Shown here piece by piece: positions 705-33,474 of a DNA stretch of 33,636 bases (its first letter is position 1; every line of letters starts with the position of its first letter). Under the pieces are notes generated by a model. That model did no database searches, was not told where the DNA came from, and saw nothing but the letters and a program-made list of their open reading frames with translations. The position numbers and the translations under genes were made by a program. Source of the stretch: Propionibacteriaceae bacterium (lineage in GTDB: Bacteria; Actinomycetota; Actinomycetes; Propionibacteriales; Propionibacteriaceae). Where the stretch lies: contig JAUNKV010000032.1 of the NCBI GenBank assembly GCA_030532575.1, forward strand, positions 1 through 33,636. Reading direction: 5' to 3'.

Positions 705-761
705 GGGCATAGCTTGGCATGACTTCGAGGAAATTTCACATGATTGTTGAGTAATCCTCAC

Positions 762-1343: not shown

Positions 1344-1344
1344 C

Positions 1345-1584: not shown

Positions 1585-1601
1585 CCATCCTCCTTCATCG
1601 C

Positions 1602-2621: not shown

Positions 2622-2629
2622 GGTGAAAA

Positions 2630-2653: not shown

Positions 2654-2663
2654 GAATTCTCCT

Positions 2664-9034: not shown

Positions 9035-9069
9035 CTGAGCCTTCCTGTGGGTCCGCGCCCACGACTGTT

Positions 9070-9165
9070 TCGGCCGGGCGGATGACCTGGCTCACCCCGA
9101 CGGGGCTCACAGTGGCGGGACCGCTGCGGATTCGCACCGCATTCCTCACCCGGCGAGGCCATTGT
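9070..9165 (-). promoter_or_regulatory. Cobalamin riboswitch upstream of the chelatase-cobO-cobBC-cobA operon
   Basis: The leader of the minus-strand operon, read on that strand, contains GGTGCGAATCCGC (9138-9126), then CCCGCCACTGTGAG (9119-9106), then the B12 box GAGCCAGGTCATCCGCC (9093-9077). These occur in the order and spacing of the adenosylcobalamin riboswitch. Outer arms GCCGGG (9154-9149) and CCCGGC (9078-9073) can close the element. The start codon follows about 40 bases later with its Shine-Dalgarno sequence in between. This suggests repression by cobalamin, at translation or by premature termination. No clear terminator hairpin is visible. The limits are approximate. Confidence 0.9.
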
Positions 9166-9192
9166 TCCACATGATGAGTAGGCTCATGCACT

Positions 9193-10398
9193 GTGATTGA
9201 TGTGGTGGGTGTCCCTGCGGGTGGCCTGGAGGAGTTGCCGGAGCCGTTGCGCGCCAAGGTGCTGGCCGCTCCGGTGGTGGTGGGCGGTCCCCGTCACCTG
9301 GCGATGCTGCCGGACTCCGGCCGGGGGGTCGCCTGGCCGAAGCCGCTGCGCAGCGGGCTGAAGGAGCTGTTCTCCCGGCTCGGCGACGACGTGGTGGTGC
9401 TCGCGACCGGCGACCCGCTGCTGTCCGGGGTGGCCACCACCCTCATCGAGGAGCTGGGGCCGCAGCGGATCCGGGTCCACCCCGGGTTGTCATCCGAGAC
9501 CTTGGCCCGGGCGCGGATGCTGTGGTCGGCGGAGACCACCTCGTGGCTGTCCCTGGTGGGTCGCGACCCGCACCGGGTGCTGGCGCTGGCCGCTCCCGGG
9601 GAGCGGCTGCTGGTGCTCTCCGCCGACGAGCACACCCCCGTCGAGCTGGCCCGCATCCTCTCTGCCACGGGCTGGGAGGCATCGCGACTCACGGTGCTGG
9701 GGAACCTCGGCACCCCGCAGGAGTCCCGGGCCGAGTTCACAGCCGCCGAGTTGGCGACGGCGGAGGTCGCGCTGCCGCGCCTGAACGTGGTCGCCATCGA
9801 GTTCTCCCACCCCGCGCGCCCGCTGGTCCCCGGTGCGTTGCTGCCGGATGCCGCGTTCAGCAACGACGGGCAGCTGACCAAGCAGCCGCTGCGGTTGGTC
9901 GCCCTGGCCGCGCTGGCCCCTGCCCCCGGGCAGGTGCTGTGGGACGTGGGTCTGGGCTCAGGCAGTATCGCCATCTCCTGGTGCCGGGCGGCTGCTCGGG
10001 CTCGCGCCGTCGGCTTCGACAAGCGTGGTGACCGGGCGGCCAGGGCCAGGGGCAACGCGACCCGGCTGGGTGTGGGTGACCGGCTCGAGGTGCGGGTGGG
10101 AGATGCGGCCTCGTTGCTGCAGGACCCGTCGCTGCCAACCCCCGATGCGGTGTTCTTCGGCGGCGGGGCCAGCCGTGAGGCCGTCGCGACCGCGCTGGCG
10201 GCGCTGCGGCCGGGCGGGCGGCTCGTCGTCCACTCCGTGACCCTGGAGACCGAAGCCCTGCTGGCGGAGCTGCACGCCAGGCACGGCGGGGAGCTGATCC
10301 GCCTCCACATGGAACACGCCCGCGCGTTGGGGTCGTTCCGGGGCTGGCAGCCCAGCCGCCACATCACCAGCTACTCACTGACCAAGGAGCAGTCATGA
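9193..10398 (+). CDS. cobL: Precorrin-6Y C5,15-methyltransferase (decarboxylating), CbiE-CbiT fusion
   Basis: Bifunctional corrin-ring enzyme of 401 residues. The N-terminal half (about 1-200) is the CbiE-type methyltransferase, with ATGDPLLSGVATTL and VHPGLSSETLARARM. The C-terminal half (about 215-401) is the CbiT-type methyltransferase and decarboxylase, with the SAM-binding stretch DVGLGSGSIAISW near residue 251 and FFGGGASRE later. The GTG at 9193 is the first usable start after the divergent riboswitch leader. Its Shine-Dalgarno sequence is weak and it may be nearly leaderless. It overlaps cobM by ATGA and diverges from the chelatase operon. The riboswitch lies on the other strand, so this pair need not be under the same control. 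Confidence 0.93.
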   Translation: MIDVVGVPAGGLEELPEPLRAKVLAAPVVVGGPRHLAMLPDSGRGVAWPKPLRSGLKELFSRLGDDVVVLATGDPLLSGVATTLIEELGPQRIRVHPGLSSETLARARMLWSAETTSWLSLVGRDPHRVLALAAPGERLLVLSADEHTPVELARILSATGWEASRLTVLGNLGTPQESRAEFTAAELATAEVALPRLNVVAIEFSHPARPLVPGALLPDAAFSNDGQLTKQPLRLVALAALAPAPGQVLWDVGLGSGSIAISWCRAAARARAVGFDKRGDRAARARGNATRLGVGDRLEVRVGDAASLLQDPSLPTPDAVFFGGGASREAVATALAALRPGGRLVVHSVTLETEALLAELHARHGGELIRLHMEHARALGSFRGWQPSRHITSYSLTKEQS

Positions 10399-18980: not shown

Positions 18981-19826
18981 ATGGAATGGACCCCGACTGG
19001 CACCGGTCACGAGCTGACCATCCGCGACGGCGCGATCATCGCCCGCAACGACAAGGGCAAGGAGCTGGCCTCCGTGCCTGCGAAGGCGAAGAAGAGCCAG
19101 GCCTTCGACGACCTGGACGCCCTGCTGAGCTTCCTGCACCAGCACGACCTGGAGGCGGGCGCGGAGGTGGAGCGGTGGCTGCTGCGTTCCCTGCCGGTAC
19201 CGCGGGCCGTGCTGGCCGAGGTCTGGGCCGATGAGGCGTGGCGGTCGTGGTTGACGGATCTGGTGGTCGCCACCGACGACGGCGTGGCTGGCTTCCTGCG
19301 CTCAGCCGATGCCTCGGGGCTGGGTGTGGTGGACCTCGACGGCGAGTCCGTGACCCTCACCGCCGAGCGGGTGCTGCTGGCCCATCCGGCGCTGCTGGAG
19401 GACCTGGACGATCTCCGGGAGTTCTCGGTGGAGCTCGGCATCACGCAGCGGTTGGATCAGCTGTTCCGGGAGGTGCACCGCAAACCCGCCGATCTGGACC
19501 CGACCACCACCATGCTGAACGACTGGTCCGGGGGCGAGTTCGCAGAGCTGAGGTTCGCAACGGGCAGGGCGCGCGCCGCAGGGTTCAAGGTCTCGGGCGG
19601 TTACGCCACCTGTGTCTGCTTCGAGGAGGGCGAGCCGGTGACGGCCCGGTACTGGATCGGGGCCGACTACCCGGAGGCTGAGACCGTCACCGGCGATCTG
19701 CACTGGACGGTGGCGGATCAGGTGGTCCCGGTGGCCGAGGTCGGTCCGCTGGCCTATTCCGAGGGGGTCAGGATGGCTGCCCACATCTTCGCCGGTCGCA
19801 CGGTGGCCAAGGAGGAGGACCAGTGA
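18981..19826 (+). CDS. DUF4132-like protein, first gene of the MoxR-vWA-SWIM locus
   Basis: A 281-residue soluble protein. The section ELGITQRLDQLFREVHR (151-167), with the following GEFAELRFATGRARAAGFKVSGGYATC, resembles the C-terminal part of DUF4132 (YehI/MolR-like) proteins, which are usually about 1000 residues or more. Here it stands alone. The ATG at 18981 gives an N-terminus starting with MEWTPTG. A TTG ten codons earlier is possible. No Shine-Dalgarno sequence is seen, so the transcript may be leaderless. The stop overlaps the GTG of the 1524-residue gene, so the two are coupled. In enterobacteria, DUF4132 genes neighbour MoxR ATPase, vWA and SWIM genes, as here. The biochemical role is unknown. 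Confidence 0.6.
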   Translation: MEWTPTGTGHELTIRDGAIIARNDKGKELASVPAKAKKSQAFDDLDALLSFLHQHDLEAGAEVERWLLRSLPVPRAVLAEVWADEAWRSWLTDLVVATDDGVAGFLRSADASGLGVVDLDGESVTLTAERVLLAHPALLEDLDDLREFSVELGITQRLDQLFREVHRKPADLDPTTTMLNDWSGGEFAELRFATGRARAAGFKVSGGYATCVCFEEGEPVTARYWIGADYPEAETVTGDLHWTVADQVVPVAEVGPLAYSEGVRMAAHIFAGRTVAKEEDQ

Positions 19827-22800
19827 TCCCGGAGGCCCGCACCGCCGAGCTGGGCGGTGTCGCCGCCACCGCCGTCGCCGACACCGTGGGGCTGCTCGCC
19901 CACAGCTACACCCATCCGATGCTCCAGGGCCGCACCGTCGTGCGGCTGGCCCGAGAGCCCCTGGCCGAGGTGGAGGACCTGAGCCTTGGTGTCCTGGGGT
20001 TCAAGAACGCTGCGTCCGCTCCGGTGGGGCACGTCCGCATCCGGGCCATCGGCTTCCCGGCCTGGCCCATCCTCACCGATCCGGCGAATGCCCGGCACGC
20101 CCTGAACCTCGTCGGTGATCTGCAGCGGGCGGCGACGCTGGCCCGCTCCAGGCCGGGGCAGGCGAAGGAGATGATCGACGAGCTGGCCGTTCAGCTGGGG
20201 GCCTCGGCCCCGCACTTCCTGCCCACCTTCCTGGAGGAGGCGGCCCGCATCTTCCTGGCCCTGGACAACCGCGTCTACGCCAGCCAGTACTTCGGCAGGG
20301 CCCGGGAGGCCGAGCGCACCCACAACGTGGCCGTGGACGAGGAGCGTCACCGTCACGTGCTGCTGGAGTTCGCGCTGGCCGGGGCGCTGAGCGCCAAGGA
20401 GCTCACCACCGAGTCCAAGGCCATGCTGGAGCGCCACAGCCCCGCCGAGGCCCTGGAGCAGTTCATCCGCCTCAACATCGACCGGGTGCGCGGCGGCCTG
20501 CCACCCTACGCGGGGCTCGGGGCCGACCTGAAACGCTTGGTCAAGGCCGCCGGGGCCGATCAGCAGCAGGTGGATGAGTGCCTGCTCCGCGCGCTGCTGC
20601 CCGCCCCGTCGATCAGCAATGCCCCGCAGGCCTTCTGGAACTCCTACATGAAGCCGCTGGCCCGCATGGCCAGGAGCAATCCCGACCTGCGGGACCTGCT
20701 GTTCGACCTCACCCCCGACGGCGCGAGGGCCGCTGGCTGGTTGGAGGTCCTGGAGGCCGCCGGGGTGGCCGACGAGCTGCGCGCCGGAGCGCGCGATGTG
20801 CTCGACTGGGTGGGGCGCTTCATCACCAAGGAGTGCTGGGCCTGGAACAGCGATTTCCCAGCTGAGCTCTCGCAGTTCATCCGCAGCCTGCCCCGGCAGG
20901 CGGGCAAGGTGCTGGAGCTTCCGCTGTTCCTGTACGGCACCGAGCCGGAGCTGATGGATGCGGCCCTGTCCCTGGGGTGCCGGGTGGAGCTCGAGTCCCG
21001 GAGCCACTGGCGTGACCACTTCGACCTGAAGGCCTGGCTGGCCGATGACCGCCGCTCGGAGCTGACCCATCTGGCCGCCAGCGATCACGCGCCGAAGGCG
21101 GCAGCGAGTCTGAAGGAGGTGAAGCTCAGCGAGCACCTGGATGTGCTGCTGGCCCATGAGGGCAGCCGCCAACTGCTGCACCGCTGGGCCACCACCACTC
21201 TCTCCGAGGACTCCACCGCGCCGGAGTTCTTCAAGGAGCTGGAACGCCTGAGGCAGCTCTACACCCCTGCCGCCCGCGCCGAGGTGGCGGATGAGCTGGC
21301 CCGTTTCGAGGCCCTGGCCGACCCGGCGGAGCTCACCGCCAAGGCCCTCCGCGACGGCCTGCTCACCGAGCTCACCTGGCCCGCCCTGGAGGCGGCAGCT
21401 GCCGAGCTGGGCTTCGAGGAGGCCGAGTACGACGAGGTCTCCGTCCAGGAGTCCTGGCCCTGGTTCGGCGTGACCCACAGGAACCGCATCATCTGGGTCA
21501 AAGGCGAGCAACGCGGTGCGGATGTCACCATCGACGTCCCGGGGGCGCAGAAGTTCAGCGAGTGGCTTTGGCTCCTGGTGGCTGGAGACACGGCCTGCCT
21601 GAGCTGGGATTCCTCGTGGTCGAGGCATCTCACCTGGGCCAGCGATCCCGCCACCCACCACAAGCAGGAATTCCACCACTGGCCTTCCGTTGACTTCGGT
21701 GACTTCTCCCTCGAGGTCGAGGCCGGTCGGTTGCGCGGCCCGGGGCTGCTCCGCCCCTCAGCGGCGCAGTTCCCCACCTCCGGGCGGGCCACCGTGTTCC
21801 AGGAGGGTTCCTCCCACTGGAGCCATGAACCGTGGGAACAGCACCCCCATGCCCTTGACCCGGACACCGGAAAACTCGGCCGGGAATCGATGCCCCCGGG
21901 TCTGGCCGCCCTCGTCGAGGCGGACCTTCGCGACGGCTTCTGCCTGGAGTCCCGGCAGACCCAGTGGATGCCAGCCGTCCCCGAGACCTTGGGCTCCCCT
22001 CTGGGGGTTGCTGACGGCCAGCACGGCTGGGTGCTGCTGACGCGCGACGACGACGAGCTGCTGGCCCGTGGCATCGATGGCTTCGCATGGCGGGGGGTGA
22101 CACAACATCATCGCTCATCCTGGCCGAGTGCCCACGTGGCCCGTCCAGGAGGCGGGCACTGGCTGGTCGTGGACGGCATCCTCCAGCTGGAGAGCTCTGC
22201 TCCGCTCCACATCGCCAGCGACGCTCGAGGCCGGGCTCATCTGCTGCACGATCTCCCCGCAGCGGGTTGGCACCATCTCCGCGTCCGCGATGAGGCGGTC
22301 AGTGCCCGGATGCGCGCCATGCAGGCGGCTGACGTGGCGGGGCTTGTCGCGGCACTGCCGCAGTGGTCCCACGACGAGCCCGAATCCCTCCCGGATGTGG
22401 TGGTCGAGGCCGCCGAGCAGCTGCTCGGCACCACCGACCAGGCGTTGACCCACGCCGTCGGCTGGGTGGCGCTGCGCATCAACCGCGCTGTCCAGCAGCT
22501 GCGGCAGCTCCGGGATGACAGCCAGGGCGACACCTCCCGGACCTTCGGGCAGTGGACGCCATCCGCGGAGGCTGTGACCTGGCTGACGGCCATCGACAGG
22601 CACCACAGTGGAGGTGGTGTGCTCAGCCATGAGGACTTCACCCGCATCAACCGGGCGCTCGACGGGCAGCGGTGGGACCGCTGGTGGGTCGGCTTCACGG
22701 CCCGCACCACGCTGCTGCACCCGGAGCTGTTGCTCGCCGGGGCCTGCCGACCGCTGGCCTCCCCGGAGCTGATCCAGGGCACAGCGGCGGCCTTCGGGGC

Positions 22801-24397
22801 CATCAAGGACAGCGGGCTGAACCGCCCGGAGACCGTCACCTTCACGGTGAACCATCCCGACGGATTGTTCGTCTCCGATCTGGAGTACGGGGACCGGGTG
22901 GAGACCCCCACCGGTCCCGCCGTCGTGTTGAACTCCGACTACAACGGCACAGATCGGATCTTCCAGCTCCTCTCCCCGGGGGGCGGTGTCCCCGCTGAGG
23001 TGAACGGGAAGGCCACCGAGCTGGAGGAGCGCTCCAGCGGGGTCGATCTCGAGGCCCACCTCGCGGCCTTCGACGCCTTGCTCGCCGATGGCGGACCGAC
23101 CTGGGACCCGGAGGCCGCGACACGGCTGGCCGAGGGCACCGGCTGGTCCCTGCCAGCTGCCAAGATCGTCCTGGCCGGGATGCCGAACCTCGGTTCGTGG
23201 GAGCACAACTGGCTGCCCAAGGAGCTCCGGGAATTCCTCGGGCTCAAGGTCACCGAGGCCCAAGCAGCCAGGAGATTCCTCCAGGGGCTCACCGACGGGC
23301 TGCTGCTGAAGCTGATCCTGGCCGGGGCCGCCGACCCGATACGGACTGCCCGCGAAGGTCTCGACGTCGATGCGATGATCGCCTGCTGGGAGGAACACAC
23401 CGCTGGCTCGGTCACCCTGCCCGAGGAGATCATCACCGAGGCGCTTCGGGTCATCGCTGGCGTCGGGGGCCACGCCGTCAGGAGGCTCACCAAGGATGAT
23501 GCGAGCCTGGATCAGCTGCCGGGTTGGCTGTGGCTGGCTGCCAGGCTGCCCCTGGACGACCCGCTGCGTCCGTGGCTCGCCGACCGGCTGGACCCCATGC
23601 TCGCGGCCACTCGCGCCAAGGAGTACGAGGAGGACCTGTACTCGGACACCCGGGACACGGTCCGCACCATCCTGGGCCTGCCCACCTTCGCCGCCACCCC
23701 TCAGGGGGCGGTCCAGGAGGTCGGCCCGTGGGCTCTCACCCGGGGCGAGAAGTACGACCACGTGGCCTTCGACCCCGCCAAGGTCGAGGACTGGGAGCTC
23801 GAGCACCAGCGCGCTCACTCCATGCCTGCCGATGGTTTCCACCGAAGCCGCCGCATCGCTGACATGGCCGCCGTGGCGGCAGGACACTTCGTCCCCATCC
23901 AGGAATGGCTCCGCACCCCCGGCGACGGCTGGGCCCAGGACCCCCTGGCCACAGCACCCGAGATCGTCGCCGAGGTGCAGCAGGTGCTCGATCTGCCCGA
24001 GGACTCGGCTCGCTACTGGCTCCAGCTCCTGGCCCTGCCCAACCCCACGGACAAGAACATCGACCTCTGGAACAGCTGGAAGAAGACTCACCGCACCAAG
24101 GCCGCCGCGCCGCTGCTCGAGAAGGGCCTGGTGGTGGAGGCCAAACGCTCCCGCGCCGGAAGGTCATTCTTCCTGCCCGGAGGCTGGATGGAGGCTTCCG
24201 CCCCGCACCTGCCCCTGGAGGTGTGGAAGGCCCCGTTCTTCGACCTCAGGGACACGCCCAAGGTGAGCCCACAGGGCTACGTCGTCGTGCCACTGGTACC
24301 CCTGCCCCAGCTCTTCGCCGACGCCTGGCAGAGATACCGCGACGGCGACGTCCCCGGCTTCAATGAACTCAGAACCGAAAGGTACCGCAGGCGATGA
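19823..24397 (+). CDS. Very large accessory protein of the MoxR-vWA locus (1524 residues, function unknown)
   Basis: A soluble protein without signal peptide or membrane segments. I recognise it from memory as a family found beside MoxR, DUF5682/vWA and SWIM genes in actinobacteria, often labelled only as DNA-binding protein. No known DNA-binding motif is evident to me. An N-terminal helical part (about 1-200) leads into a middle part (about 207-895) shared with the 701-residue gene at 25433. The shared blocks include SWPWFGV, NRIIWV, GQHGWV, RPGGGHW and LLGTT. A C-terminal part (about 900-1524) is unique in this window except for the last about 50 residues, a copy of which is at 25278-25436. 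The GTG at 19823 has AGGAGGAGG upstream and overlaps the previous stop. The end overlaps an ATG (ATGA) that opens a broken paralog. Confidence 0.8.
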   Translation: MIPEARTAELGGVAATAVADTVGLLAHSYTHPMLQGRTVVRLAREPLAEVEDLSLGVLGFKNAASAPVGHVRIRAIGFPAWPILTDPANARHALNLVGDLQRAATLARSRPGQAKEMIDELAVQLGASAPHFLPTFLEEAARIFLALDNRVYASQYFGRAREAERTHNVAVDEERHRHVLLEFALAGALSAKELTTESKAMLERHSPAEALEQFIRLNIDRVRGGLPPYAGLGADLKRLVKAAGADQQQVDECLLRALLPAPSISNAPQAFWNSYMKPLARMARSNPDLRDLLFDLTPDGARAAGWLEVLEAAGVADELRAGARDVLDWVGRFITKECWAWNSDFPAELSQFIRSLPRQAGKVLELPLFLYGTEPELMDAALSLGCRVELESRSHWRDHFDLKAWLADDRRSELTHLAASDHAPKAAASLKEVKLSEHLDVLLAHEGSRQLLHRWATTTLSEDSTAPEFFKELERLRQLYTPAARAEVADELARFEALADPAELTAKALRDGLLTELTWPALEAAAAELGFEEAEYDEVSVQESWPWFGVTHRNRIIWVKGEQRGADVTIDVPGAQKFSEWLWLLVAGDTACLSWDSSWSRHLTWASDPATHHKQEFHHWPSVDFGDFSLEVEAGRLRGPGLLRPSAAQFPTSGRATVFQEGSSHWSHEPWEQHPHALDPDTGKLGRESMPPGLAALVEADLRDGFCLESRQTQWMPAVPETLGSPLGVADGQHGWVLLTRDDDELLARGIDGFAWRGVTQHHRSSWPSAHVARPGGGHWLVVDGILQLESSAPLHIASDARGRAHLLHDLPAAGWHHLRVRDEAVSARMRAMQAADVAGLVAALPQWSHDEPESLPDVVVEAAEQLLGTTDQALTHAVGWVALRINRAVQQLRQLRDDSQGDTSRTFGQWTPSAEAVTWLTAIDRHHSGGGVLSHEDFTRINRALDGQRWDRWWVGFTARTTLLHPELLLAGACRPLASPELIQGTAAAFGAIKDSGLNRPETVTFTVNHPDGLFVSDLEYGDRVETPTGPAVVLNSDYNGTDRIFQLLSPGGGVPAEVNGKATELEERSSGVDLEAHLAAFDALLADGGPTWDPEAATRLAEGTGWSLPAAKIVLAGMPNLGSWEHNWLPKELREFLGLKVTEAQAARRFLQGLTDGLLLKLILAGAADPIRTAREGLDVDAMIACWEEHTAGSVTLPEEIITEALRVIAGVGGHAVRRLTKDDASLDQLPGWLWLAARLPLDDPLRPWLADRLDPMLAATRAKEYEEDLYSDTRDTVRTILGLPTFAATPQGAVQEVGPWALTRGEKYDHVAFDPAKVEDWELEHQRAHSMPADGFHRSRRIADMAAVAAGHFVPIQEWLRTPGDGWAQDPLATAPEIVAEVQQVLDLPEDSARYWLQLLALPNPTDKNIDLWNSWKKTHRTKAAAPLLEKGLVVEAKRSRAGRSFFLPGGWMEASAPHLPLEVWKAPFFDLRDTPKVSPQGYVVVPLVPLPQLFADAWQRYRDGDVPGFNELRTERYRRR
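24313..24359 (+). repeat. 47-bp direct repeat, left copy (end of the 1524-residue gene)
   Basis: These 47 bases match 25352-25398 exactly, and similarity continues through the stop codons of both reading frames. They encode the same peptide, FADAWQRYRDGDVPG. The two copies flank the vapBC pair at a distance of 1039 bp. They derive from duplication of the 3' end of the large gene. Confidence 0.9.
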
Positions 24398-24567
24398 TCG
24401 ACGAGGACCGTCACCTCGAGGCCTTCCTCGAGTTCTCTTTGGTCGGTGCACTCAGCTCCCAGGAACTCAGGCAGTGTTGTTCTTCGACGAGTCGGTCAGA
24501 CGATCTGCAGGCCGAGGACTCGAGCCGACGACTTCAGCCCCTCGTCGAAGGTGGCGATGCGAGCTGA
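24394..24567 (+). pseudogene. Broken N-terminal piece of a large-protein paralog
   Basis: An ATG overlapping the stop of the 1524-residue gene opens a 57-codon frame. Its first 27 residues (IDEDRHLEAFLEFSLVGALS, then SQELRQ) match residues 172 to about 196 of the large protein (VDEERHRHVLLEFALAGALS, then AKELT). After about 24471 the similarity stops, and the frame reads antisense into the 3' end of vapC. So this is the start of a second paralog, cut by the vapBC-containing segment. It might still be translated as a short peptide by coupling. Reading on at 25433 resumes homology at residue 207 or so of the large protein. Confidence 0.7.
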
Positions 24568-24876
24568 GGTCTGCTCGGCTGTCAGCAGCACGCAGCAGTC
24601 AGGCATCTTCGACCCTGTGGTGGCACGAAGCCGCGCCAGCCGAGCGGCAGCATCATCCGGCAGGGGAGTCGTGGTGACACCCAGAGCCCGAAGGTCGGCC
24701 AGCATTGCCAGATCCCGGTTCTCACGCGCAGCCCTGACCAGCACTTCCGCCAAGTTGATCGGACCGATGGTCATCGGCTCAGAAGCATGGTTCACGAACA
24801 GCGCCTCGGCCGCGGCGTGGTGTACGTCACGGGCATCGAACAACGCGATGAGAACCCCCGAGTCGAGAGCGATCAC
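24496..24876 (-). CDS. vapC: PIN-domain ribonuclease toxin (VapC type)
   Basis: A 126-residue PIN domain with the expected acidic metal-binding residues D5 (IALDSGVLIALFD), E44 (INLAEVLV), D93 (KMPDCCVL) and D111 (IATFDEGL). VapC toxins cut specific tRNAs or rRNA. The GTG at 24876 forms a GTGA overlap with the antitoxin stop and gives the usual short N-terminus, with CGGAG upstream. A GTG three codons earlier is also possible. It is antisense to the surrounding locus, and its 3' end overlaps a broken paralog of the large protein. Confidence 0.85.
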   Translation of the reverse strand: MIALDSGVLIALFDARDVHHAAAEALFVNHASEPMTIGPINLAEVLVRAARENRDLAMLADLRALGVTTTPLPDDAAARLARLRATTGSKMPDCCVLLTAEQTSARIATFDEGLKSSARVLGLQIV

Positions 24877-25142
24877 TCGGGCCACTCCGAACGTAGATCC
24901 TCAAGATGGCCCGGCGCATAGAGGCCTGTGTAGGAACCACTGATCCGTCGCACGGCGGCCAGTCGGTTGTTCTGCCGCTCCACGACACCCGGATCGATGC
25001 TCTTGCGCCCCTCCTCAATCAGGCGACGCAGCAGCCGAGCAGGCTTGTCCCGGTCGCCCGGCCATCGCAATGCAGCAGCGCGCAGCGCTTCAGAGACTTC
25101 GGGCGTCTCGGTCACGGGGTGGCGGCGCTTGGTGGTGGGCAT
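24873..25142 (-). CDS. vapB: VapB-type antitoxin
   Basis: An 89-residue partner of the PIN toxin. TKRRHPVTETPEVSEALRAA, then LRWPGDRDKPARLLRRLIEE, is the layout of actinobacterial antitoxins paired with VapC toxins. The N-terminal half probably dimerises and binds DNA. The C-terminal tail (SGSYTGLYAPGHLEDLRSEW) probably wraps the toxin. The ATG at 25142 has no Shine-Dalgarno sequence. A TACACT hexamer ends six bases before it, which fits a leaderless transcript with a promoter inside the paired GTGTWACAC sites. It is the first gene of the pair and overlaps vapC by GTGA. Confidence 0.8.
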   Translation of the reverse strand: MPTTKRRHPVTETPEVSEALRAAALRWPGDRDKPARLLRRLIEEGRKSIDPGVVERQNNRLAAVRRISGSYTGLYAPGHLEDLRSEWPE

Positions 25143-25147
25143 GACCC

Positions 25148-25179
25148 AAGTGTAACACCGGCGAGAAGTGTTACACCTT
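25148..25179 (-). promoter_or_regulatory. Probable vapBC operator: two GTGTWACAC palindromes
   Basis: GTGTAACAC (25150-25158) and GTGTTACAC (25168-25176) are each quasi-palindromic and form an inverted pair. Their centres are 18 bp apart, just under two helical turns. They lie directly upstream of the vapB ATG and overlap its likely -10 region. This is the expected layout for autorepression by the VapBC complex. It is inferred from symmetry and position. Confidence 0.65.
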
Positions 25180-25277
25180 GGATGGGTGGTGGTCAGTGAG
25201 TTGGTCGTCGTGCAAGGTTCGCACCTTTTCTGGGCGAGGGCTTTCTGCACTGTCCAGAGCGCAGGCATGATGGAGAT

Positions 25278-25436
25278 GTGAACCTTGAGGATGCAGCGAA
25301 GGTGAAACCCCGCTGGAGAGTGGTGACCCCCACCACCCCCCTCCCCCAGCACTTCGCCGACGCCTGGCAGAGATACCGCGACGGCGACGTCCCCGGCTAC
25401 GTTGAGCTCAGAACCGAAAGGTACCGACGCCGATGA
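25278..25436 (+). pseudogene. C-terminal remnant of a large-protein paralog (52 codons)
   Basis: An in-frame GTG preceded by GGAGA opens a 52-residue frame (NLEDAAKVKPRWRVVTPTTP, then LPQHFADAWQRYRDGDVPG ...) that matches the last 53 residues of the 1524-residue protein and ends in the same ELRTERYRRR. The stop overlaps the ATG of the 701-residue gene. It may be a dead fragment. With its start and ribosome site, it may also be a leader peptide that couples translation into the next gene. The DNA similarity to the end of the large gene includes a perfect 47-bp run. Confidence 0.7.
25352..25398 (+). repeat. 47-bp direct repeat, right copy
   Basis: Exact copy of 24313-24359, lying in the C-terminal remnant just before the 701-residue gene. 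Recombination between the two copies would delete vapBC and rejoin the 1524-residue frame directly to the 701-residue gene. Confidence 0.9.
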
Positions 25437-27538
25437 GCACCGAGGCACTGTCGCGATGCATCACCTCGGCCATCGAACGTATCGAGGGCGGCACCCCGCC
25501 ACCTGCGAAGCTCGCTGCCGAGGTCAAACAGCTGGCCAAGGACGCCGGGCTGGGCTTCCCCGAGGCCGCCCAACCCCTGGTGGCCCGCGCCCTCCTCGCC
25601 CCCGCCATCCGGCAGGCCCCGCAGGCATTCTGGAGTGGATTCCGCGCCCCCATCACCCAGTGGGCGAAGCAGTCCCGGGAGGCACGCGACGCCCTGTTCT
25701 CGCTGCTCCCGGACATCCCCACCACCCGCTGGTTGCCGATCCTGGAGGTGACCGGGGTCGCCGACGAGATGCGGGCCGGGGAACACGAGACGGCTGATTG
25801 GATTCGACGGTTCATCCACAAGGAGTCCGACCGGTGGCGGCAGCACTTCCCAGCCGAGCTGTCGACCTTCATCCGCACCCTGCCCAGCCAGCAGGGCAAG
25901 ACCCTGGAGCTGAATGTTCCCCTGGCTGATGTGGAGCTGGAGCTGGTGGATGCCGCCCTCAGTCTGGGGCTGGAGGTCACCTTCACCGAACCCGGTGATC
26001 CCGAGTGCTTCTCGTGGCGGTTCTGGCTGGAGGACGAGCGTCGTGGGGACCTCGCGCACCTCGCCGCCAGCGAGCATGCCACCCGCGCCGCCGTCGGTCT
26101 CAACCGCATCGCTCTCGGCCCCCACCTCGACACCCTGCGCGCCCACCCCGGGAGCGCGCAGCTGCTGCATCGCTGGGCGGCGCCTCGCGTGGGCCACGGC
26201 TGCACGGCCGCCGAGTTCTGGGCCGAGGTGGATCGACTGCGCCCCCTGTGCCTGCCCGCCCACCGCGACGAGTTCCGAGATGAGCTGGCCGGACTCGCCA
26301 GCGTCGCCGACCCTGCGGAGCTCACCGCCCAGGCCCTGCGGGACGGCCTGCTGACCGAACTCACCTGGCCCGCCCTGGAGGAGGCGGCACGGCAGCTCGA
26401 CGACGCCGACCCCGGCAGGTTGACCTTCCATGAATCCTGGCCCTGGTTCGGGGTCGCTTCCGGGAACCGGATCATCTGGGTGACCGCCGACACCACCGAG
26501 GCCCTGGTCACCGTGACCCCACCGGAGCGGAGCCACCACGACCACTGGCAGTGGTTCCGAATCGGGGGCGACACCCTGTGCCTGAGCTGGACCCCGGACG
26601 AGGACCCGCACATGACGTGGGCGAGTTCCCCCAGGACCCACCACACCCTGACCCACATCCTGGGCGGCAACCCCGGCTTCATCTCCTTCGAGACCCCATC
26701 CGGTCGGCTCCTCGGCCCCGGCCTGATCCGCCCCGGCGACTCCCGCCTGAAGCTGCGGCTCCGCGAACCGGTGCTGCAGGAGGACGGCGACCACTGGTGC
26801 GCTCAATACCTCCACCCCATACGGGCCGTGGACCCGCGAACGGGCAGGCTCGGCCCGGAATCCCTACCGCCTCGCCTGGCCTCACTCGTCGAGGACGACC
26901 TGCGCCAGGGGTTCACCCTGCGCGCGCTCTCAGTCCAACACTGGATGAGCGTCGTTTCCGGAACGGAGGACTCCCCGCTCGGTGTCCTAAACGGTCAGCA
27001 TGGCTGGGTGTGCCTGCGCCGAGGCCCCCTCCTCAGGTGCCGCAGCATCGACGGCACTGTGTGGGAACGCGAGGATGCGGTGTGGCAGCACAGGTTCTTC
27101 CCCGCCGCCCGCCTCCGACGCCCAGGCGGCGGCCACTGGATCGCCACCGGTACCGGGCACCTCACCCGGGAATCCGGCGAACCCCTGGCCCCCGCATCCG
27201 ACCTGACCGGCCGGGACCACCTGCTGCACCGGCTGCCGGTGGCGGGCTGGCACTTCCTCACACCCCGCGACGAGCAGGTCAGCGCCAGACTGCGGCAGCT
27301 GCTGGCCGAGGACGTGGCCGACCTCCTCGAAGCCCTGGCCGACTGGTCCCCGGAGGAACCGGAGACGCTCCCCGAACCGGTGATCGCTGCGGCACAACGA
27401 CTGCTCGGCACCACCGAGGCGGCCCTCACGGTCGCCGTCGGCTGGCTGGCGCTGCGCATCAGCCGCGCCGTCCAGCAGTTCACCACCGCGACCTCCAGCC
27501 ACGACGACCTGAACATCGAAAGGGAGCCCACACGATGA
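25433..27538 (+). CDS. Paralog of the middle of the 1524-residue protein (701 residues, function unknown)
   Basis: A soluble protein matching residues about 207-895 of the 1524-residue neighbour over nearly its whole length. Shared blocks include QAFW near the start, PAELTAQALRDGLLTELTWP, SWPWFGV, NRIIWV, GQHGWV, RPGGGHW, AGWH and LLGTT...AVGWLALRI. It ends soon after that block and so lacks the 630-residue C-terminal part. The ATG at 25433 overlaps the stop of the remnant before it, with GAAAGG 11 bases upstream. The true ancestral start may be the broken ATG at 24394. Its stop overlaps the ATG of the MoxR ATPase. It is either a functional shorter subunit or a truncated duplicate; the intact 2.1-kb frame favours function. 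Confidence 0.75.
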   Translation: MSTEALSRCITSAIERIEGGTPPPAKLAAEVKQLAKDAGLGFPEAAQPLVARALLAPAIRQAPQAFWSGFRAPITQWAKQSREARDALFSLLPDIPTTRWLPILEVTGVADEMRAGEHETADWIRRFIHKESDRWRQHFPAELSTFIRTLPSQQGKTLELNVPLADVELELVDAALSLGLEVTFTEPGDPECFSWRFWLEDERRGDLAHLAASEHATRAAVGLNRIALGPHLDTLRAHPGSAQLLHRWAAPRVGHGCTAAEFWAEVDRLRPLCLPAHRDEFRDELAGLASVADPAELTAQALRDGLLTELTWPALEEAARQLDDADPGRLTFHESWPWFGVASGNRIIWVTADTTEALVTVTPPERSHHDHWQWFRIGGDTLCLSWTPDEDPHMTWASSPRTHHTLTHILGGNPGFISFETPSGRLLGPGLIRPGDSRLKLRLREPVLQEDGDHWCAQYLHPIRAVDPRTGRLGPESLPPRLASLVEDDLRQGFTLRALSVQHWMSVVSGTEDSPLGVLNGQHGWVCLRRGPLLRCRSIDGTVWEREDAVWQHRFFPAARLRRPGGGHWIATGTGHLTRESGEPLAPASDLTGRDHLLHRLPVAGWHFLTPRDEQVSARLRQLLAEDVADLLEALADWSPEEPETLPEPVIAAAQRLLGTTEAALTVAVGWLALRISRAVQQFTTATSSHDDLNIEREPTR

Positions 27539-28620
27539 CCCCCACCCAGCAGGTACCGCCGCCCGAGGTGCGCCACGCCGACGAGCTGGCCCGGCTCGCC
27601 GCAGAACCCGGGGCCCGGCCCCCCGGCTGGCGGATGACCCCCTCAGCCGTGGTCTCCTTCATCTCAGGCAACGACCGACTGAAGATCAGCCGCAAGTTCG
27701 TCGGTGATGTCTCACTGATCGAACGCTGCGTCATCACCCTGGCCGGGGAGCGGGCCCTGCTGCTGGTCGGCGAACCCGGCACCGCCAAGTCGATGCTCTC
27801 GGAGCTGCTGGCCGCCGCCATCTGCGGCACCTCCGGCCTCACCGTCCAGGGCTCGGCCGGCACCACCGAGGACCAGCTGCGCTACGGCTGGAACTACGCC
27901 CAGCTGCTCGCGAAGGGGCCGAGCCAGGAGGCGCTCGTCGAATCCCCCGTCATGGCGGCGATGCGTACCGGTCGGGTCGCCCGCATCGAGGAGATCACCC
28001 GATGTCTGCCCGAGGTGCAGGACGGCCTGGTCTCGGTGCTGTCCGAGCGTCGTCTCGCGGTCCCCGAGCTCGGCGAGCACGCCGTCCACGCCGCCCCCGG
28101 GTTCTGCATCATCGCCACCGCCAACCTGCGCGACCGGGGCGTGTCCGAGATGTCCGCCGCACTGAAGCGACGGTTCAACTTCGAGGCCGTGGACCCCATC
28201 TCCGACGCCGCCGCCGAGATCGCACTCGTGACCGAACGCACCAAACAGGCCCTGGTCGCCGCCGGGGCCCCCGCCACCGTCGACGAGGTGGTGGTCGAAA
28301 CCCTGGTCACGGCCTTCCATGAGCTGCGCTCGGGCGTCACCCAGGAGGGCTGGGCCGTGGAGAAGCCCTCGACGGTGCTGTCCACGGCCGAGGCGGTGGC
28401 GATCTCCGGCTCCATCGCCCTGGCCGGGGCCTTCTTCCCCCACGCCCACGACGGGGTGCGGCTGATCCCCGGCCAGCTGCTCGGCGCAGTCCGCAAGGAC
28501 GACCCCGAGGACGGTGCCAGGCTGCGCGCCTACTGGGATCAGGTGGTCAAACGCCGCGCCCGGGAGGGCCGCCACACCTGGGTTCAGCTGTGGGAACAAC
28601 GAAACGTCCTCACCCGATGA
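27535..28620 (+). CDS. MoxR-type AAA+ ATPase
   Basis: A 361-residue AAA+ ATPase of the MoxR kind. It shows Walker A GEPGTAKS (79-86), a Walker B of IEE type (RIEEITRCLPE, 149-159), sensor 1 asparagine N197 in ATANLRDRG and an arginine finger in ALKRRFNFE (209-217). MoxR ATPases work as chaperone-like motors with vWA partners, remodelling or metallating target proteins. The partner is encoded directly downstream. It is closest in type to Escherichia coli YehL. The ATG at 27535 overlaps the previous stop (ATGA) with AAAGGGAG upstream, and the long frame running back to 26551 is a shadow. Confidence 0.92.
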   Translation: MTPTQQVPPPEVRHADELARLAAEPGARPPGWRMTPSAVVSFISGNDRLKISRKFVGDVSLIERCVITLAGERALLLVGEPGTAKSMLSELLAAAICGTSGLTVQGSAGTTEDQLRYGWNYAQLLAKGPSQEALVESPVMAAMRTGRVARIEEITRCLPEVQDGLVSVLSERRLAVPELGEHAVHAAPGFCIIATANLRDRGVSEMSAALKRRFNFEAVDPISDAAAEIALVTERTKQALVAAGAPATVDEVVVETLVTAFHELRSGVTQEGWAVEKPSTVLSTAEAVAISGSIALAGAFFPHAHDGVRLIPGQLLGAVRKDDPEDGARLRAYWDQVVKRRAREGRHTWVQLWEQRNVLTR

Positions 28621-28650
28621 CCACCGATCCCGCATGACCACCGACCCCAC
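28617..28650 (+). repeat. 17-bp start-codon duplication with a six-codon minigene
   Basis: The 17 bases from 28617 (ATGACCACCGATCCCGC) recur from 28634 with two changes. The first copy overlaps the ATPase stop as ATGA and reads MTTDPA then TGA. That TGA overlaps the second ATG (28634), which opens the DUF5682-vWA gene. The shift of 17 bp put the original overlapping start out of frame. Confidence 0.8.
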
Positions 28651-31600
28651 GGCCCCGCTGGCCGAGCTCACCGGCTGCCGCTCCCCGCTGCTCGTCGGCA
28701 TCCGCCACCACTCCCCCGCGCTGGCGGTGGCGCTGCCTGCCCTGCTGGATGAGCACCGCCCGGATGTACTGGCCATCGAGCTGCCCGCCGAGGCCGCCGC
28801 GTGGCTGGACTGGCTGACCCACCCCGAGGCGACGGCCCCGCTGGCCCTGGCCTTCTCCGGCCGAGACGGCCTGGCCTTCTACCCGTTCGCGGACTTCTCC
28901 CCGGAGCTGGCGGCGCTCCGATGGGCCCGCAGCCACGACGTCCCCGTGGCCTGCATCGACCTGCCGCTGGCCGCCCCCACCCCGGAGGAGGAGCACCCCG
29001 GGACGGGAGAGACCCTGTGGCAGGAGGCCCTGGCCCGGCGCGCCCGCACCATCCCGGGCGATGTGAACGAGACCTGGGATCGTCTCGTCGAGGCCCCCGC
29101 CCCCGGCTCCACCCCGGAACAGCTGCGGGTCGCCGCGCTCGCCCACGGCTGGGCCTCCCGCCGGGCGAGCACCCCCGATGCCCTCACCCTCGCCCGCGAG
29201 GTCTGGATGCGGGGTCAGCTCGCGGAGCTGCTGGGCAGCGGCCAGCAGGTGGCGGCCGTCGTCGGCTCCTTCCACGCCCCGGCCCTGCTGACCCCCGAAG
29301 GCCCCGACCCCCAGCTCCCGGAGGTCACCGACGCCGAGGTGACGGGCTGCCTGGTGCCCTACACCTTCGCTCAGCTGGATTCGCGCTCCGGTTATCCCGC
29401 AGGCATCCGGGACCCCGGCTGGCAGCAGGCCGTCGTCGAGTCCCTGCTGGACGCCCACCTGATCCACGCTGCCGCCACCGCAGCCATCACCCGGATCACC
29501 CGGGCGCTGCGGGAGGCCACCCACCCCGCCGGTCCCGGCGAGGCCGCCGAGACCGCGCGCGTCGCCCTGGATCTCGCCACCCTGAGGGGCCTGCCCGCCC
29601 CGTCGCGCCGGGAGGTCATCGAGGCCGTGACGACGGTGCTGGCCCAGGGTGAGGTGCTGGGCCGGGGCCGGGTCGTCGCCGACGCCCTGGAGCAGGTGCT
29701 GATCGGGGATCGACGCGGCCAGCTCGCCCCCGGCTCCCCGGTCTCGCCGCTGCGCGAATCCATCACCACCGAGCTGCGCGCCGCGCGGGTCAACCCCGAG
29801 CGCGACGAGGAATGGACCCTCACCCCGCTGCGCGGCGGCCTGGACCTGACCCGCCACATCCTGTTCACCCGGCTCATGGTCGCCGGGATCAGCTTCGCCA
29901 GCCCCACCTCCGGCACCCAGTGGCGGGGCGCGGAGACCACCGCCACCACCTGGACCACCCGGTGGAGCGCCGCCACCGATGCCACCATCCAGCTGGCCAC
30001 CGCGCAGGGCCTCGACGTGGCGCAGGTCGCCACCACCGCGCTGCTCACCCGCAAGGTCGACGATCAGGAGTCCGTGCGTGGCCTGCTCGTCGATGCCGCG
30101 GCCTGCGGCTCAGCGCCCGGCCTGGAGCGGGCCCTGGCGGCGCTGGCCCCGCTGGCGGGCAGCACCTCCTTCCGGGCCGCCGTCCTGGTCCACCTGATCC
30201 TCAGTGACATCGAGCTGGCCCGTATCCCCGGGGCCCGTCTCCTGCCCGCTGATCTCAGGGAGCGCAGCGCCCGGCTACGGGCTGAGTTCACCGCCGCAGC
30301 GGTGCGGGAGCTGAAGGGCATCGAGGGCTCCGACGACCTCGACGACGCCGCCGCCCTGGCCGCCTTCGTGGAGCAGGGCCGGGAGCACGAGCTGAGCCTG
30401 ACCGCGTCGCTGACCCACCTGGCCGCCGAGGGGTCGCCGCTGATGCAGGGGGCCGCCGCCGGGCTGCTGCTGGACGACGACAGGGCCGCATCCCGCATCG
30501 CGGGCTGGCTGGATGCCGCAACCGTCCCGGCGAGGCGGGCGCTGCGCCGTCGCCTGGCGGGGCTGCTGGTCGCGGCCAGGGGACGCTTCGACACCGCCCC
30601 GGCCACCTTGGCCCTGGTGGCGCGCATCTGTGAGATCGACGACGCCGAGTTCGTCGCGCTGCTGCCCAGCCTCCGGGGCGGGTTCGACGTGCTGACCGCC
30701 GAGGCCAGGACCGCGTTGCTGCAGGACCTGGCCAGCGAGCTGGGGCGGGCCCGCAACCTGGCCCTGCCCCCTGAGGAGGCCACCCGGGCCGCCCGGTACG
30801 ACACCGCGGCCCGCTCCCGCCTGGCTTCCTTGGGGCTGGCTGACCTCTCCTTCTCCCCTGCGGAGCGGTGGCGGCTGATCCTGGGAGAACGCGACCGGCT
30901 CTCCCCCGCCGGCAGGCGCATGGCCTCCGCCCTCGATGAGCTGTACGGCAGGGCGGGCAGTGACAGCCTCGACGCCGCCGCGCGCAGTGCGGGCGATGGC
31001 CCGTCGCAGCTGGGGGTCAGGCAGTGGGAGCAGGAGATCGAGGCGCTGTTCGGGAAAGGTGAGGTGACCGAGATCTTCGCCGACGCTGCCGCCGCCGGGC
31101 GGGGCGATGTGCTGGAGCGGCTGGACCCGGAGGCGACCCGGCCGTCGGTGGGGCTGCTCGCCACCGCCTTGTCCCTGACCGGCAGCCTGTCGGAGGCCAG
31201 GCTGGCGAGGCTTCGCCCCCTGGTGCGGCGGATGGTGCGGGAGCTGAGTGAGGAGCTGGCCATCCGGCTGCGCCCTGCGCTGACCGGGCTGGCCGTGGGT
31301 CGCCCCACCCGACGTCGCACGGGACGGCTCGACCTGGAACGCACCATCCGGGCCAACCTGAAGCAGGTGGTGCCGCTCGACGGCCGCGCCCAGGTGGTGC
31401 CGGTGCACCCGGTCTTCCGCGCTCCGGTGGCGAAGGAGATGGACTGGCACCTGATCGTGCTGGTGGATGTCTCCGGTTCGATGTCCGAATCGGTGGTCTA
31501 CTCCGCCCTGACAGCCGCGATCCTGGCCGAGAGCCCGGCCCTCAGCGTCGAATTCCTGGCCTTCTCCACCGAGGTGCTGGACTTCACCGGCCAGGTCACC

Positions 31601-31945
31601 GACCCGCTGCGGCTGCTGCTGGAGGTGGAGGTCGGCGGCGGTACCGACATCGCGGGGGCGCTCCGGGTGGCCCGGTCCCGGGTACGGATTCCGGCCCGCA
31701 CCCTGCTGGTGCTCATCAGCGACTTCGAGGAGTTCGGCTCACTCACCCCGATGCTGGGTGAGTTGGAGGCGCTGCGCGGGGCCGGGGTGCACATGCTCGG
31801 CTGCGCCGCGCTGAACGACTCCGGCACCGGCGTGTACAACATCGGGATCGCCGCACAGGCCGCAGCTGCGGGGATGCGGGTGGCCGCGGTCTCGCCGCTG
31901 GACCTGGCGCGCTGGGTGGGCACCGTCGTTCGGGAGGCGTCATGA
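28634..31945 (+). CDS. DUF5682-vWA fusion protein
   Basis: A 1103-residue soluble protein. The N-terminal part has the DUF5682 (YehM-like) features: SPLLVGIRHHSPALAVALPA, VLAIELPAEAAAWLDWL, FYPFADFSPELAALRWA and AAVVGSFHAPALL. A long helical middle follows. The C-terminal vWA domain, from about residue 935, has the MIDAS motif D945-x-S947-x-S949 (LIVLVDVSGSMSES), GGGTDIAGAL and a LLVLISDFEEFG strand. In Escherichia coli these are two proteins (YehM and YehP), so the fusion implies they touch. The vWA part is the expected partner of the upstream MoxR ATPase. The ATG at 28634 is used because the earlier ATG is out of frame. The stop overlaps the SWIM gene start with GGGAGG upstream. Confidence 0.88.
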   Translation: MTTDPTAPLAELTGCRSPLLVGIRHHSPALAVALPALLDEHRPDVLAIELPAEAAAWLDWLTHPEATAPLALAFSGRDGLAFYPFADFSPELAALRWARSHDVPVACIDLPLAAPTPEEEHPGTGETLWQEALARRARTIPGDVNETWDRLVEAPAPGSTPEQLRVAALAHGWASRRASTPDALTLAREVWMRGQLAELLGSGQQVAAVVGSFHAPALLTPEGPDPQLPEVTDAEVTGCLVPYTFAQLDSRSGYPAGIRDPGWQQAVVESLLDAHLIHAAATAAITRITRALREATHPAGPGEAAETARVALDLATLRGLPAPSRREVIEAVTTVLAQGEVLGRGRVVADALEQVLIGDRRGQLAPGSPVSPLRESITTELRAARVNPERDEEWTLTPLRGGLDLTRHILFTRLMVAGISFASPTSGTQWRGAETTATTWTTRWSAATDATIQLATAQGLDVAQVATTALLTRKVDDQESVRGLLVDAAACGSAPGLERALAALAPLAGSTSFRAAVLVHLILSDIELARIPGARLLPADLRERSARLRAEFTAAAVRELKGIEGSDDLDDAAALAAFVEQGREHELSLTASLTHLAAEGSPLMQGAAAGLLLDDDRAASRIAGWLDAATVPARRALRRRLAGLLVAARGRFDTAPATLALVARICEIDDAEFVALLPSLRGGFDVLTAEARTALLQDLASELGRARNLALPPEEATRAARYDTAARSRLASLGLADLSFSPAERWRLILGERDRLSPAGRRMASALDELYGRAGSDSLDAAARSAGDGPSQLGVRQWEQEIEALFGKGEVTEIFADAAAAGRGDVLERLDPEATRPSVGLLATALSLTGSLSEARLARLRPLVRRMVRELSEELAIRLRPALTGLAVGRPTRRRTGRLDLERTIRANLKQVVPLDGRAQVVPVHPVFRAPVAKEMDWHLIVLVDVSGSMSESVVYSALTAAILAESPALSVEFLAFSTEVLDFTGQVTDPLRLLLEVEVGGGTDIAGALRVARSRVRIPARTLLVLISDFEEFGSLTPMLGELEALRGAGVHMLGCAALNDSGTGVYNIGIAAQAAAAGMRVAAVSPLDLARWVGTVVREAS

Positions 31946-33474
31946 CCACCATCTCCCCCGCCCTGCTGGCCGGGATCGTCGAGGCCCTGGCGCCCCGGGT
32001 CCGAAGGCGTGTGGATGCGCTGCTGGAATCCCCGCCCGAGCTGGGATTGGTGGTGGACTTCGGCAATGCGACGGTGCGCGTGGCCCAGGTGGAGCAGCTC
32101 ACCGAACCTGAGCAGCTGAGCTGTGACTGCCTGCTGGCCCCGGCCTGCGCACACCGCGCTGTCGTCGCGCTGCTGCTGCCGGTGGCCGACGGTGAACCGT
32201 CAACCTCCCCCGAGGTTCCGCAGCCCGCGGCGGAGACTCCCGACAGCCCTCCCCTCAGCCCGGCGCAGCGTGACGCCGTCGCTGTGGTCTCGACCCATCT
32301 GCGGCACGCGCTGCTGGTGGGGTCGGCTCGGCTGAGCGCGGCGGATCGGGGCGAGCTGGCGGCTGATCTGCACCGGCTGCGCACCTTCGGCCTGGTGACG
32401 GCGGATCGGGGGCTGACCGGGTACGTGTCGTCGCTGCAGGGGCGGGGACGCCCCAACCTGCCGGGGTTCGCGGCCGCCCTGCTGAACCTGCACCAGCTGG
32501 AGCGGCTGGGTCCTGAGGACCCGGCCGGGGAGCTGCTGGGGCGGGCCAGGGAGAGCTACCGTGATGTCGGTGGGCTTCGGCTCACCCCGTTGAGCGCGGA
32601 GCCGATCCTCACCGCGTCGGGTTTCGCCGGTAGTCAGGTGAGTTTCCACGACTCCTCGGGCCGGGTCTGGAAACTCGCCAGGGTGCGTCCGGGCACGGCA
32701 CGCGACATCGTGACGCACTACCTGGCCGGGGAGACCTGGGCCGGGATCAGCGACTCGCACGCTGTGCTGTCGAGGCATCGTCTGCTGGTCTCGGATGCCA
32801 CTGCCCGCGACGACGGCAGGTTGGGCGGGGGCCGTCAGGTCCGGGCGGCCCGGGGTGAGGCCGCCATGCTGTGGGAGCAGGTGCCGGACGGGTACCGCGT
32901 CGTCTCAGGGCCGATCACCGGCGGCGACCGGACGTCGCTGGAGGTGGCGGGAGAGGCGCTGCGGCTGCTGCCGGTGGCCAGGGCGTTGGGGGCTGGACTC
33001 GCCACGGAGCTGTTCGGCGCGGCCCTCGGCACCGAGGTGACCTGCCTGGTGCGCGACGAGCACCTGCTGGGGATGCACTCCACCGGCGGGCTGATCCTCA
33101 TCCCTGAGGGCCTGGGTGACATCTGGTGGCCGGGCCTGGACCGGGTGGATCGTTCCTGGGCCAGCACCTTGCCCGAGGTCTCGCCGGTGGAGCCGGACGT
33201 GGACCCCGCCGACTGGATGGCGGTCTCACCCGAGGTTCAGGAGGTCACCGCCCGCTGGTGCGCCCGGGTACTGGAGGCCGGGCAGGTGGCACTCGAAGCA
33301 CCGTCACTGGCGGAGGACATCACCTGGCTGTCCCGGGCCGGTGCCCCCTTCGCATCCGAGCTGCTGCAGTCTCTGGCGGACTCCCGACAAGCAGGCCGAC
33401 GGCGCTTCGACGGCACCTGGGAACCAGACCCCGCCCCCTTGGCCCAAGCTTGGCTGGCCCTCAGCCAGTACTGA
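31942..33474 (+). CDS. SWIM zinc-finger protein
   Basis: A 510-residue protein with a SWIM-type zinc finger near its N-terminus: C61-x-C63, then C69-x-H71 (LSCDCLLAPACAHRAVV). A linker follows and then a long mixed domain without a motif I recognise. SWIM fingers bind DNA or proteins and occur in transposase, SWI/SNF and MEK kinase relatives. SWIM proteins also accompany MoxR-vWA-DUF5682 genes in many bacteria (Escherichia coli YehQ). The ATG overlaps the preceding stop. It is the last gene of the locus, and an intergenic repeat tract begins about 20 bp later. Confidence 0.88.
   Translation: MTTISPALLAGIVEALAPRVRRRVDALLESPPELGLVVDFGNATVRVAQVEQLTEPEQLSCDCLLAPACAHRAVVALLLPVADGEPSTSPEVPQPAAETPDSPPLSPAQRDAVAVVSTHLRHALLVGSARLSAADRGELAADLHRLRTFGLVTADRGLTGYVSSLQGRGRPNLPGFAAALLNLHQLERLGPEDPAGELLGRARESYRDVGGLRLTPLSAEPILTASGFAGSQVSFHDSSGRVWKLARVRPGTARDIVTHYLAGETWAGISDSHAVLSRHRLLVSDATARDDGRLGGGRQVRAARGEAAMLWEQVPDGYRVVSGPITGGDRTSLEVAGEALRLLPVARALGAGLATELFGAALGTEVTCLVRDEHLLGMHSTGGLILIPEGLGDIWWPGLDRVDRSWASTLPEVSPVEPDVDPADWMAVSPEVQEVTARWCARVLEAGQVALEAPSLAEDITWLSRAGAPFASELLQSLADSRQAGRRRFDGTWEPDPAPLAQAWLALSQY

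Follow-up and report, generated by a model that had tools for sequence, protein, structure and literature searches.

What does a MoxR ATPase do in the company of giant proteins that match no Pfam family above cut-off? The question is raised by a locus in the 3.19-Mb genome of an actinobacterium related to Arachnia, on a contig (C63; 33,636 bases) that constitutes the whole window analyzed here. On the plus strand, the locus encodes a 281–amino acid DUF4132 protein (18981-19826; PF13569 at residues 26-201, E between about 7e-24 and 8e-24), giant protein B of 1524 amino acids (19823-24397), a decayed giant copy (24394-25436), giant copy D of 701 amino acids (25433-27538), a MoxR AAA+ ATPase of 361 amino acids (27535-28620; PF07728, AAA_5, E 2e-38; P-loop GEPGTAKS at residue 79), a DUF5682-vWA fusion of 1103 amino acids (28634-31945), and a SWIM-motif protein of 510 amino acids (31942-33474; CDCLLAPACAH at residue 61). 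The fusion carries its DUF5682 (E 8e-134) and VWA_CoxE (E 4e-55) parts in a single frame. Successive frames overlap, by GTGA at 19823 and by ATGA at 24394, 25433, 27535, and 31942, as read in the sequence; the sole exception is the MoxR/DUF5682 junction, where 13 nt separate the MoxR stop from the chosen start (28634). All frames named in a preliminary description of this DNA are present where they were placed, and Pfam confirms its DUF4132, MoxR, DUF5682, and vWA assignments. The SWIM-motif protein drew nothing in a Pfam search even at E ≤ 10. Its motif takes the form C.CLL[AS]P.C.H in all 18 loci in which the gene was found (the window and 17 others), a count that omits G038 and G658, where the contig or the stretch ends before the gene. 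Elsewhere in the window, at 7028-9034 and beside tetrapyrrole methylase genes, lies a magnesium-chelatase–like protein with AAA and vWA parts; it is a different MoxR-clade protein, outside the locus.

The two giants are the remnant of something larger. Copy D corresponds to residues 207-895 of B only, at 51% identity. Between B and D, the decayed copy retains a 5′ piece (24394-24470, plus strand), whose translation resembles B residues ~171-196 by eye, and a 3′ piece with its stop codon (25281-25436, plus strand), which is 73% identical to B residues 1474-1524 and repeats the end of B as a 108-nt direct repeat (89%). The decayed copy also contains, on the minus strand, a PIN-domain (VapC-like) gene (24496-24885; PF01850, E 1e-12) and a putative antitoxin gene (24873-25142; 89 amino acids, start codon assumed). 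The latter is recognized by its position and its overlap with the PIN gene, a Pfam search returning no match, and an inverted repeat (25145-25181) lies upstream of it. The paralogy of the giants proposed in the preliminary description is thus borne out, while the pair itself is what remains of a tandem array with a decayed third copy in its midst.

The same gene order (DUF4132, giant, MoxR, DUF5682-vWA, and SWIM) is found in the relatives G036, G054, and G105, while G038, G085, and G134 have parts of it at the ends of contigs. In a sample of 396 Actinomycetota genomes, each of the 10 full-length-giant loci read has all five genes, with a DUF4132 relative upstream of the giant. Three more loci have DUF4132, the giant, MoxR, and DUF5682-vWA; SWIM is present in two of them, and in the third the contig ends first. 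Across this phylum sample and an overlapping class sample (393 genomes), DUF5682 lies downstream of the full-length giant, on the same strand and 1.2 to 2.1 kb from its end, in all 26 genomes besides the source, a gap that leaves room for MoxR. Gene content was read in 13 of the 26, all of which have MoxR, the other 13 contributing the position of DUF5682 only. The preliminary description had staked its proposal on these genes being conserved together, and the neighborhood survey finds that they are. Since this order recurs across Actinomycetota, the locus is not a chance assemblage.

A giant was counted as full-length if the match spanned from about positions 3-22 to 1513-1525, and partial or divergent matches were left out of these counts. 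Those of them that were read with the window proteins as queries (G465, G537, G748, G621, G861, the second copies in G726 and G800, and the fragments in G869 and G318) yielded no complete gene set; G537 has a degraded locus, and G861 has DUF4132 and a shortened giant only. Giant matches of any kind were detected in 16 of 396 phylum, 49 of 393 class, and 7 of 147 family genomes (source genome counted each time), in searches that scored two or three candidates per genome and could miss copies elsewhere. Of the 14 genomes listed for the genus, 5 have a giant, source included. DUF5682 as such is commoner than the giant, occurring in 39 of 396 genomes, with 38 matches above the family cut-off, and 28 of these 39 are without a full-length giant.

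Of 20 giant-type loci tabulated, 19 have one open frame across 88 to 99% of DUF5682-vWA (100% in the window); in the remaining locus, the contig end interrupts the gene. The P-loop GEPGTAKS is present in 20 of 20 MoxR proteins, and D.SGS in 19 of 19 vWA domains from these loci. The window fusion has its MIDAS motif, DVSGS, at residue 945 and two GX2H motifs, GIRH at 22 and GSFH at 211. Two such motifs are a signature of the TraB/ChaN/TIKI superfamily. Among 66 sequences, H25, H26, and E49 are invariant and H214 is present in at least 90%. These features weakly suggest that DUF5682 may contain a TraB/ChaN-like domain.

We find that the locus is related to, yet distinct from, the yehI-yehL-yehM-yehP-yehQ set of Escherichia coli. 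Its MoxR is 46% identical to YehL (64% positives over 366 columns) and has the neighborhood of the YehL subfamily: DUF5682, a CoxE-type vWA, and a SWIM-motif protein, on one strand and with DUF4132 nearby. There are several differences, however. E. coli yeh has no giant, and comparison with E. coli proteins brought out no relation to the giants. YehI has 1210 amino acids with DUF4132 near its end, whereas the window DUF4132 protein has only 281 and no BLAST similarity to YehI, its DUF4132 likeness being detected by Pfam. DUF5682 and vWA are separate genes in E. coli but fused in the window, and the window SWIM protein has the motif alone in common with YehQ. The match to the yeh set put forward in the preliminary description therefore holds for MoxR, DUF5682, vWA, and the DUF4132 domain by Pfam, extends to the SWIM component through its motif only, and does not include the giants.

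We rejected a canonical yeh-type assignment, given the missing large (WGR-)DUF4132 component and the fusion of DUF5682 to vWA. The idea that the giant is a split YehI was likewise discarded, profile comparison giving a probability of 17.8% over 68 columns only. A second set in the same genome is E. coli yeh-like (L009, from source-genome contig C55, 71000-90000; at ~1-10171, minus strand). It comprises separate DUF5682 and vWA genes, a WGR-DUF4132 protein, a MoxR, and a SWIM-type gene whose score (15.8 bits) is below the cut-off of 19.6. In both this set and E. coli, a single frame covers only 32% of DUF5682-vWA. Together with the genomes that have DUF5682 without a full-length giant, the second set indicates that the system exists in two forms, E. 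coli–like and giant-type. Genes for DUF5682, vWA, and MoxR are also present on three records filed as E. coli plasmids (CP137936, CP088875, and NZ_CP103756), two of which contain yehM, yehP, and yehL; the canonical yeh system may thus be plasmid-borne.

Neither giant matches a Pfam family above cut-off, and the best named relatives of the giant are two Arachnia propionica records (81% identity). Structure prediction, which the preliminary description had recommended, was more informative for the 1524–amino acid giant. An AF2 model of B residues 1-1200 is confident (mean pLDDT 90.2), and fold comparison of this predicted model points, with middling Z scores, to a TPR-like solenoid and a beta-propeller–like domain, the propeller matches covering residues ~514-818 (21362-22276, plus strand). 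The predicted layout of B is a conserved N-terminal part, the solenoid, the propeller-like domain, helical and beta parts, and a conserved C-terminal part. Conservation is concentrated at the ends (residues 1-236 and 1366-1524), and the middle is more variable. The fourth G036 giant and its G134 counterpart are without residues ~511-821; this gap coincides with the propeller matches, suggesting that the propeller behaves as a unit. Two further relatives of ~1135 amino acids (P0071 and P0089) are without residues ~490-950.

Giant relatives also occur outside the locus. Shorter ones are found at 9502-11613 of L010 (source-genome contig C65), at L112 (G134 contig C123), and at L113 (G036 contig C76). 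By eye, these seem to occupy the same place in the three genomes, with an argG-like neighbor in two and a common downstream gene; a PIN-like gene follows in two of the three. In other Actinomycetota there are divergent stand-alone giants with open frames of 1551 to 1825 amino acids (L085, L114, L115, L117, and L118), and the stretches read around them contain no relatives of the MoxR machine.

In Arachnia, the giants form tandem arrays. Between DUF4132 and MoxR, G036 carries a succession of four intact giants (1517, 1529, 1457, and 1204 amino acids), with overlaps of 4, 1, and 4 nt. In G134, fragments accompany six or more copies, spread over several contigs that end inside giants; two of these contigs are linked by 56 identical bases, and the order of the rest is inferred. 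At least two copies are present in G085, and one each in G054, G105, and G038. Outside the family, all 13 full-length-giant loci read have a single giant. The single giants there and in G054, G105, and G038 suggest that diversification may be special to Arachnia. With one full, one decayed, and one truncated copy, the window is a shrunken version of such an array. Its truncated form has a parallel: a D-type copy on G134 contig C155 starts at residue 208 (207 in window D) and is 80% identical over 690 codons, with a dN/dS of 0.45. A form shortened at the N terminus is thus inherited and under constraint.

The toxin-antitoxin genes do not have a fixed position in these arrays. The G134 array contains a gene 91% identical to the window PIN gene, and the 730-bp piece bearing the VapBC-like pair lies at different array positions in the two genomes. 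This piece (window 24470-25199) is 90.7% identical to 4462-5191 of L110 (G134 contig C155), in reverse orientation. The pair could be along as a passenger, or it could help to stabilize the array. The preliminary description had considered a conflict or stress role possible given this pair, though not proven by the sequence. A pair located inside a decayed giant copy, and elsewhere in the array of a relative, is no proof of such a role, and PADLOC-DB gives no supported model.

Giant copies differ not only in number but also in the descent of their parts. Identity between G036 copy 2 and its G134 counterpart is 90 to 99% across codons 1-600, 62 to 79% across 601-1200, and 96 to 98% across 1201-1500. 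Conversely, the middle is conserved and the ends differ between G036 copy 1 and G134 copy 1. Codons 601-800 of B (21623-22222, plus strand) are near-identical to G036 copy 1 (94 to 99% DNA identity, dS 0.04 to 0.08) while the remainder of B is not, the other 100-codon windows having dS values of 0.25 to 0.68. For the four neighboring genes, dS is 0.33 to 0.69 overall, and the lowest 150-codon window stands at 0.23. Judged from these rates, codons 601-800 of B are the product of a recent exchange with G036 copy 1. In each of three pairs, the observed contrast was reached by 0 of 1000 column shuffles. Shuffling takes no account of selection that varies from one part of a gene to another, an objection to which the dS contrast is less exposed. 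The exchanged segments span the propeller yet extend to other parts. On sequence comparison, the giant copies are mosaics whose segments have been exchanged between copies and between species. There is no sign of positive selection over whole giant pairs, where dN/dS is below 1 (0.30 to 0.47 in four between-strain pairs), a ratio that carries no meaning for single windows with dS near zero.

What, then, are the giants for? They probably serve sensing or conflict, as far as function can be read from such data. Our favored interpretation, offered tentatively and at slightly less than an even chance, is that the YehL-type MoxR-vWA system has a second form in actinobacteria, to which this locus belongs and in which the giants are exchangeable specificity subunits. 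A specificity role is suggested by the tandem, recombining nature of the Arachnia family and by its varying copy number between strains; such reshuffling suggests that the giant acts in recognition and is under pressure to vary. The preliminary description had envisaged an ATP-driven multi-protein system with the giants and the DUF4132 protein as substrates, sensors, or effectors. The system does prove to be a coherent, conserved, yeh-related MoxR/vWA set; in place of that list of roles, the recombining Arachnia giants point to specificity.

In the mechanism we propose, a complex assembled around the giant would be gripped through the vWA module and remodeled by the MoxR ring. Docking to the common machine, consisting of the DUF4132 protein, MoxR, and DUF5682-vWA, would fall to the conserved giant ends (1-236 and 1366-1524), while the solenoid and propeller would bind a ligand and set specificity. 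Arachnia would thereby serve several giants, with different ligand-binding parts, from one shared machine, and segment exchange among copies and strains would supply new variants. Ligand binding would lead to ATP-driven remodeling that switches an effector, for which the candidates are a possible TraB/ChaN-like domain in DUF5682, the SWIM protein, and the DUF4132 protein. A stronger version, which we regard as unlikely, makes the locus one of receptor diversification: the array, including forms without the N-terminal or propeller part, would be a cassette store from which recognition modules are reshuffled while a single ATP-driven machine serves them all, and the toxin-antitoxin pair would help to retain it. 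It would be a recombination-based counterpart of retroelement-diversified MoxR-linked sensors.

Other explanations are compatible with parts of these data. Maturation of protein complexes is the task of known MoxR-vWA pairs (PMC3893208 and PMC7159879, in their available text), and the locus could encode a housekeeping maturation machine like RavA-ViaA that assembles or repairs a cellular complex. The giant would then be a scaffold dedicated to this machine, and the Arachnia copies paralogs for different client complexes. The single giant in every locus read outside the family and dN/dS values well below 1 fit this idea, but the patchy distribution of the giant at phylum, class, and family level does not, and copy number and segments that differ between strains would be unusual in a housekeeping scaffold. 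We consider it somewhat unlikely. Still more doubtful is the proposal that the extra giants are neutral debris left by a repetitive gene that crossed over unequally, with only the first copy working and the toxin-antitoxin pair a passenger. The composition of the window array and the differing positions of the toxin-antitoxin piece would be expected of debris, yet no internal stop interrupts the four G036 copies or the five tabulated G134 copies (the fifth cut by a contig end), copy D and its G134 counterpart appear constrained (dN/dS 0.45), and copy junctions within G036 and within G134 contig C141 preserve start-stop overlaps of 1 or 4 nt. We thus regard this as very improbable.

The alternative that most directly concerns conflict is an anti-invader role, as in ternary MoxR-vWA systems: the giant would sense a phage or foreign protein, and the machine would release a growth-stopping effector. 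Variation by recombination fits such a role, and related systems use hypermutated putative sensors (PMC10907252, available text). The GXXXTAKS MoxR and the predicted TPR-like and propeller-like parts of a third component recall subsystem 4 of Kaur et al. (PMC7159879, available text), and DUF5682-vWA relatives occur on 40 of 72,556 plasmid records. Against it, just 1 of 50,697 phage records has such a relative, Pfam recognizes no effector domain, and PADLOC-DB gives no supported model, only a single weak line (E 0.016) on a 689–amino acid mechanical frame. The vWA is also without a fused propeller, and the bpMoxR score (PF20030) of the window MoxR is 22.8 bits, below the cut-off of 27. We judge this explanation decidedly unlikely. 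The sole phage record concerned, MT835988, is an unannotated 14.2-kb sequence labeled Bacteriophage sp. from human feces.

Many bacteria besides E. coli have a YehL-type MoxR system. In the open-licence papers searched, we found no report of a client for a YehL-type MoxR, and DUF5682 is not mentioned there. In the actinobacterial form, the giant emerges as a candidate client or sensor, whose variable parts are revealed by the Arachnia arrays.

Among known systems, RavA-ViaA resembles the window locus in pairing a MoxR with a vWA cofactor (PMC3893208, available text), but it belongs to a different MoxR subfamily and is a two-gene operon. There is also a likeness to the MoxR-vWA ternary conflict systems described by Kaur et al. 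in 2020 (PMC7159879). According to the available text, their subsystem 4 typically has a TPR and beta-propeller third component, and its MoxR is often of the GXXXTAKS type; the window has a MoxR with this P-loop, a vWA partner, and a third protein with predicted TPR-like and propeller parts. In that description, however, the subsystem 4 vWA strictly carries a propeller, whereas the window vWA carries DUF5682. The vWA_CoxE match covers residues 915-1135 of a 1143-residue frame, with 8 residues after it, and no propeller is fused to the window vWA. Given this and the bpMoxR score, we rejected membership in subsystem 4. The hosts also differ, being mostly bacteroidetes, planctomycetes, verrucomicrobia, and proteobacteria in the available account of subsystem 4 but Actinomycetota in all cases found here, and the window locus adds SWIM and DUF4132 proteins; SWIM, YehL, and DUF4132 do not appear in the available main text of PMC7159879. 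The window system may nevertheless work in a similar way. A further parallel comes from MoxR-linked putative sensors that are hypermutated by retroelements and proposed as MoxR partners (PMC10907252, available text). Both those systems and the window system have a diversified, MoxR-linked putative sensor, but diversity comes from retroelements in the former and from tandem copies and segment exchange in the latter, where no retroelement was noticed in passing. If this variation serves recognition, the giant locus would represent a MoxR-linked system in which recombination among tandem copies diversifies the sensor.
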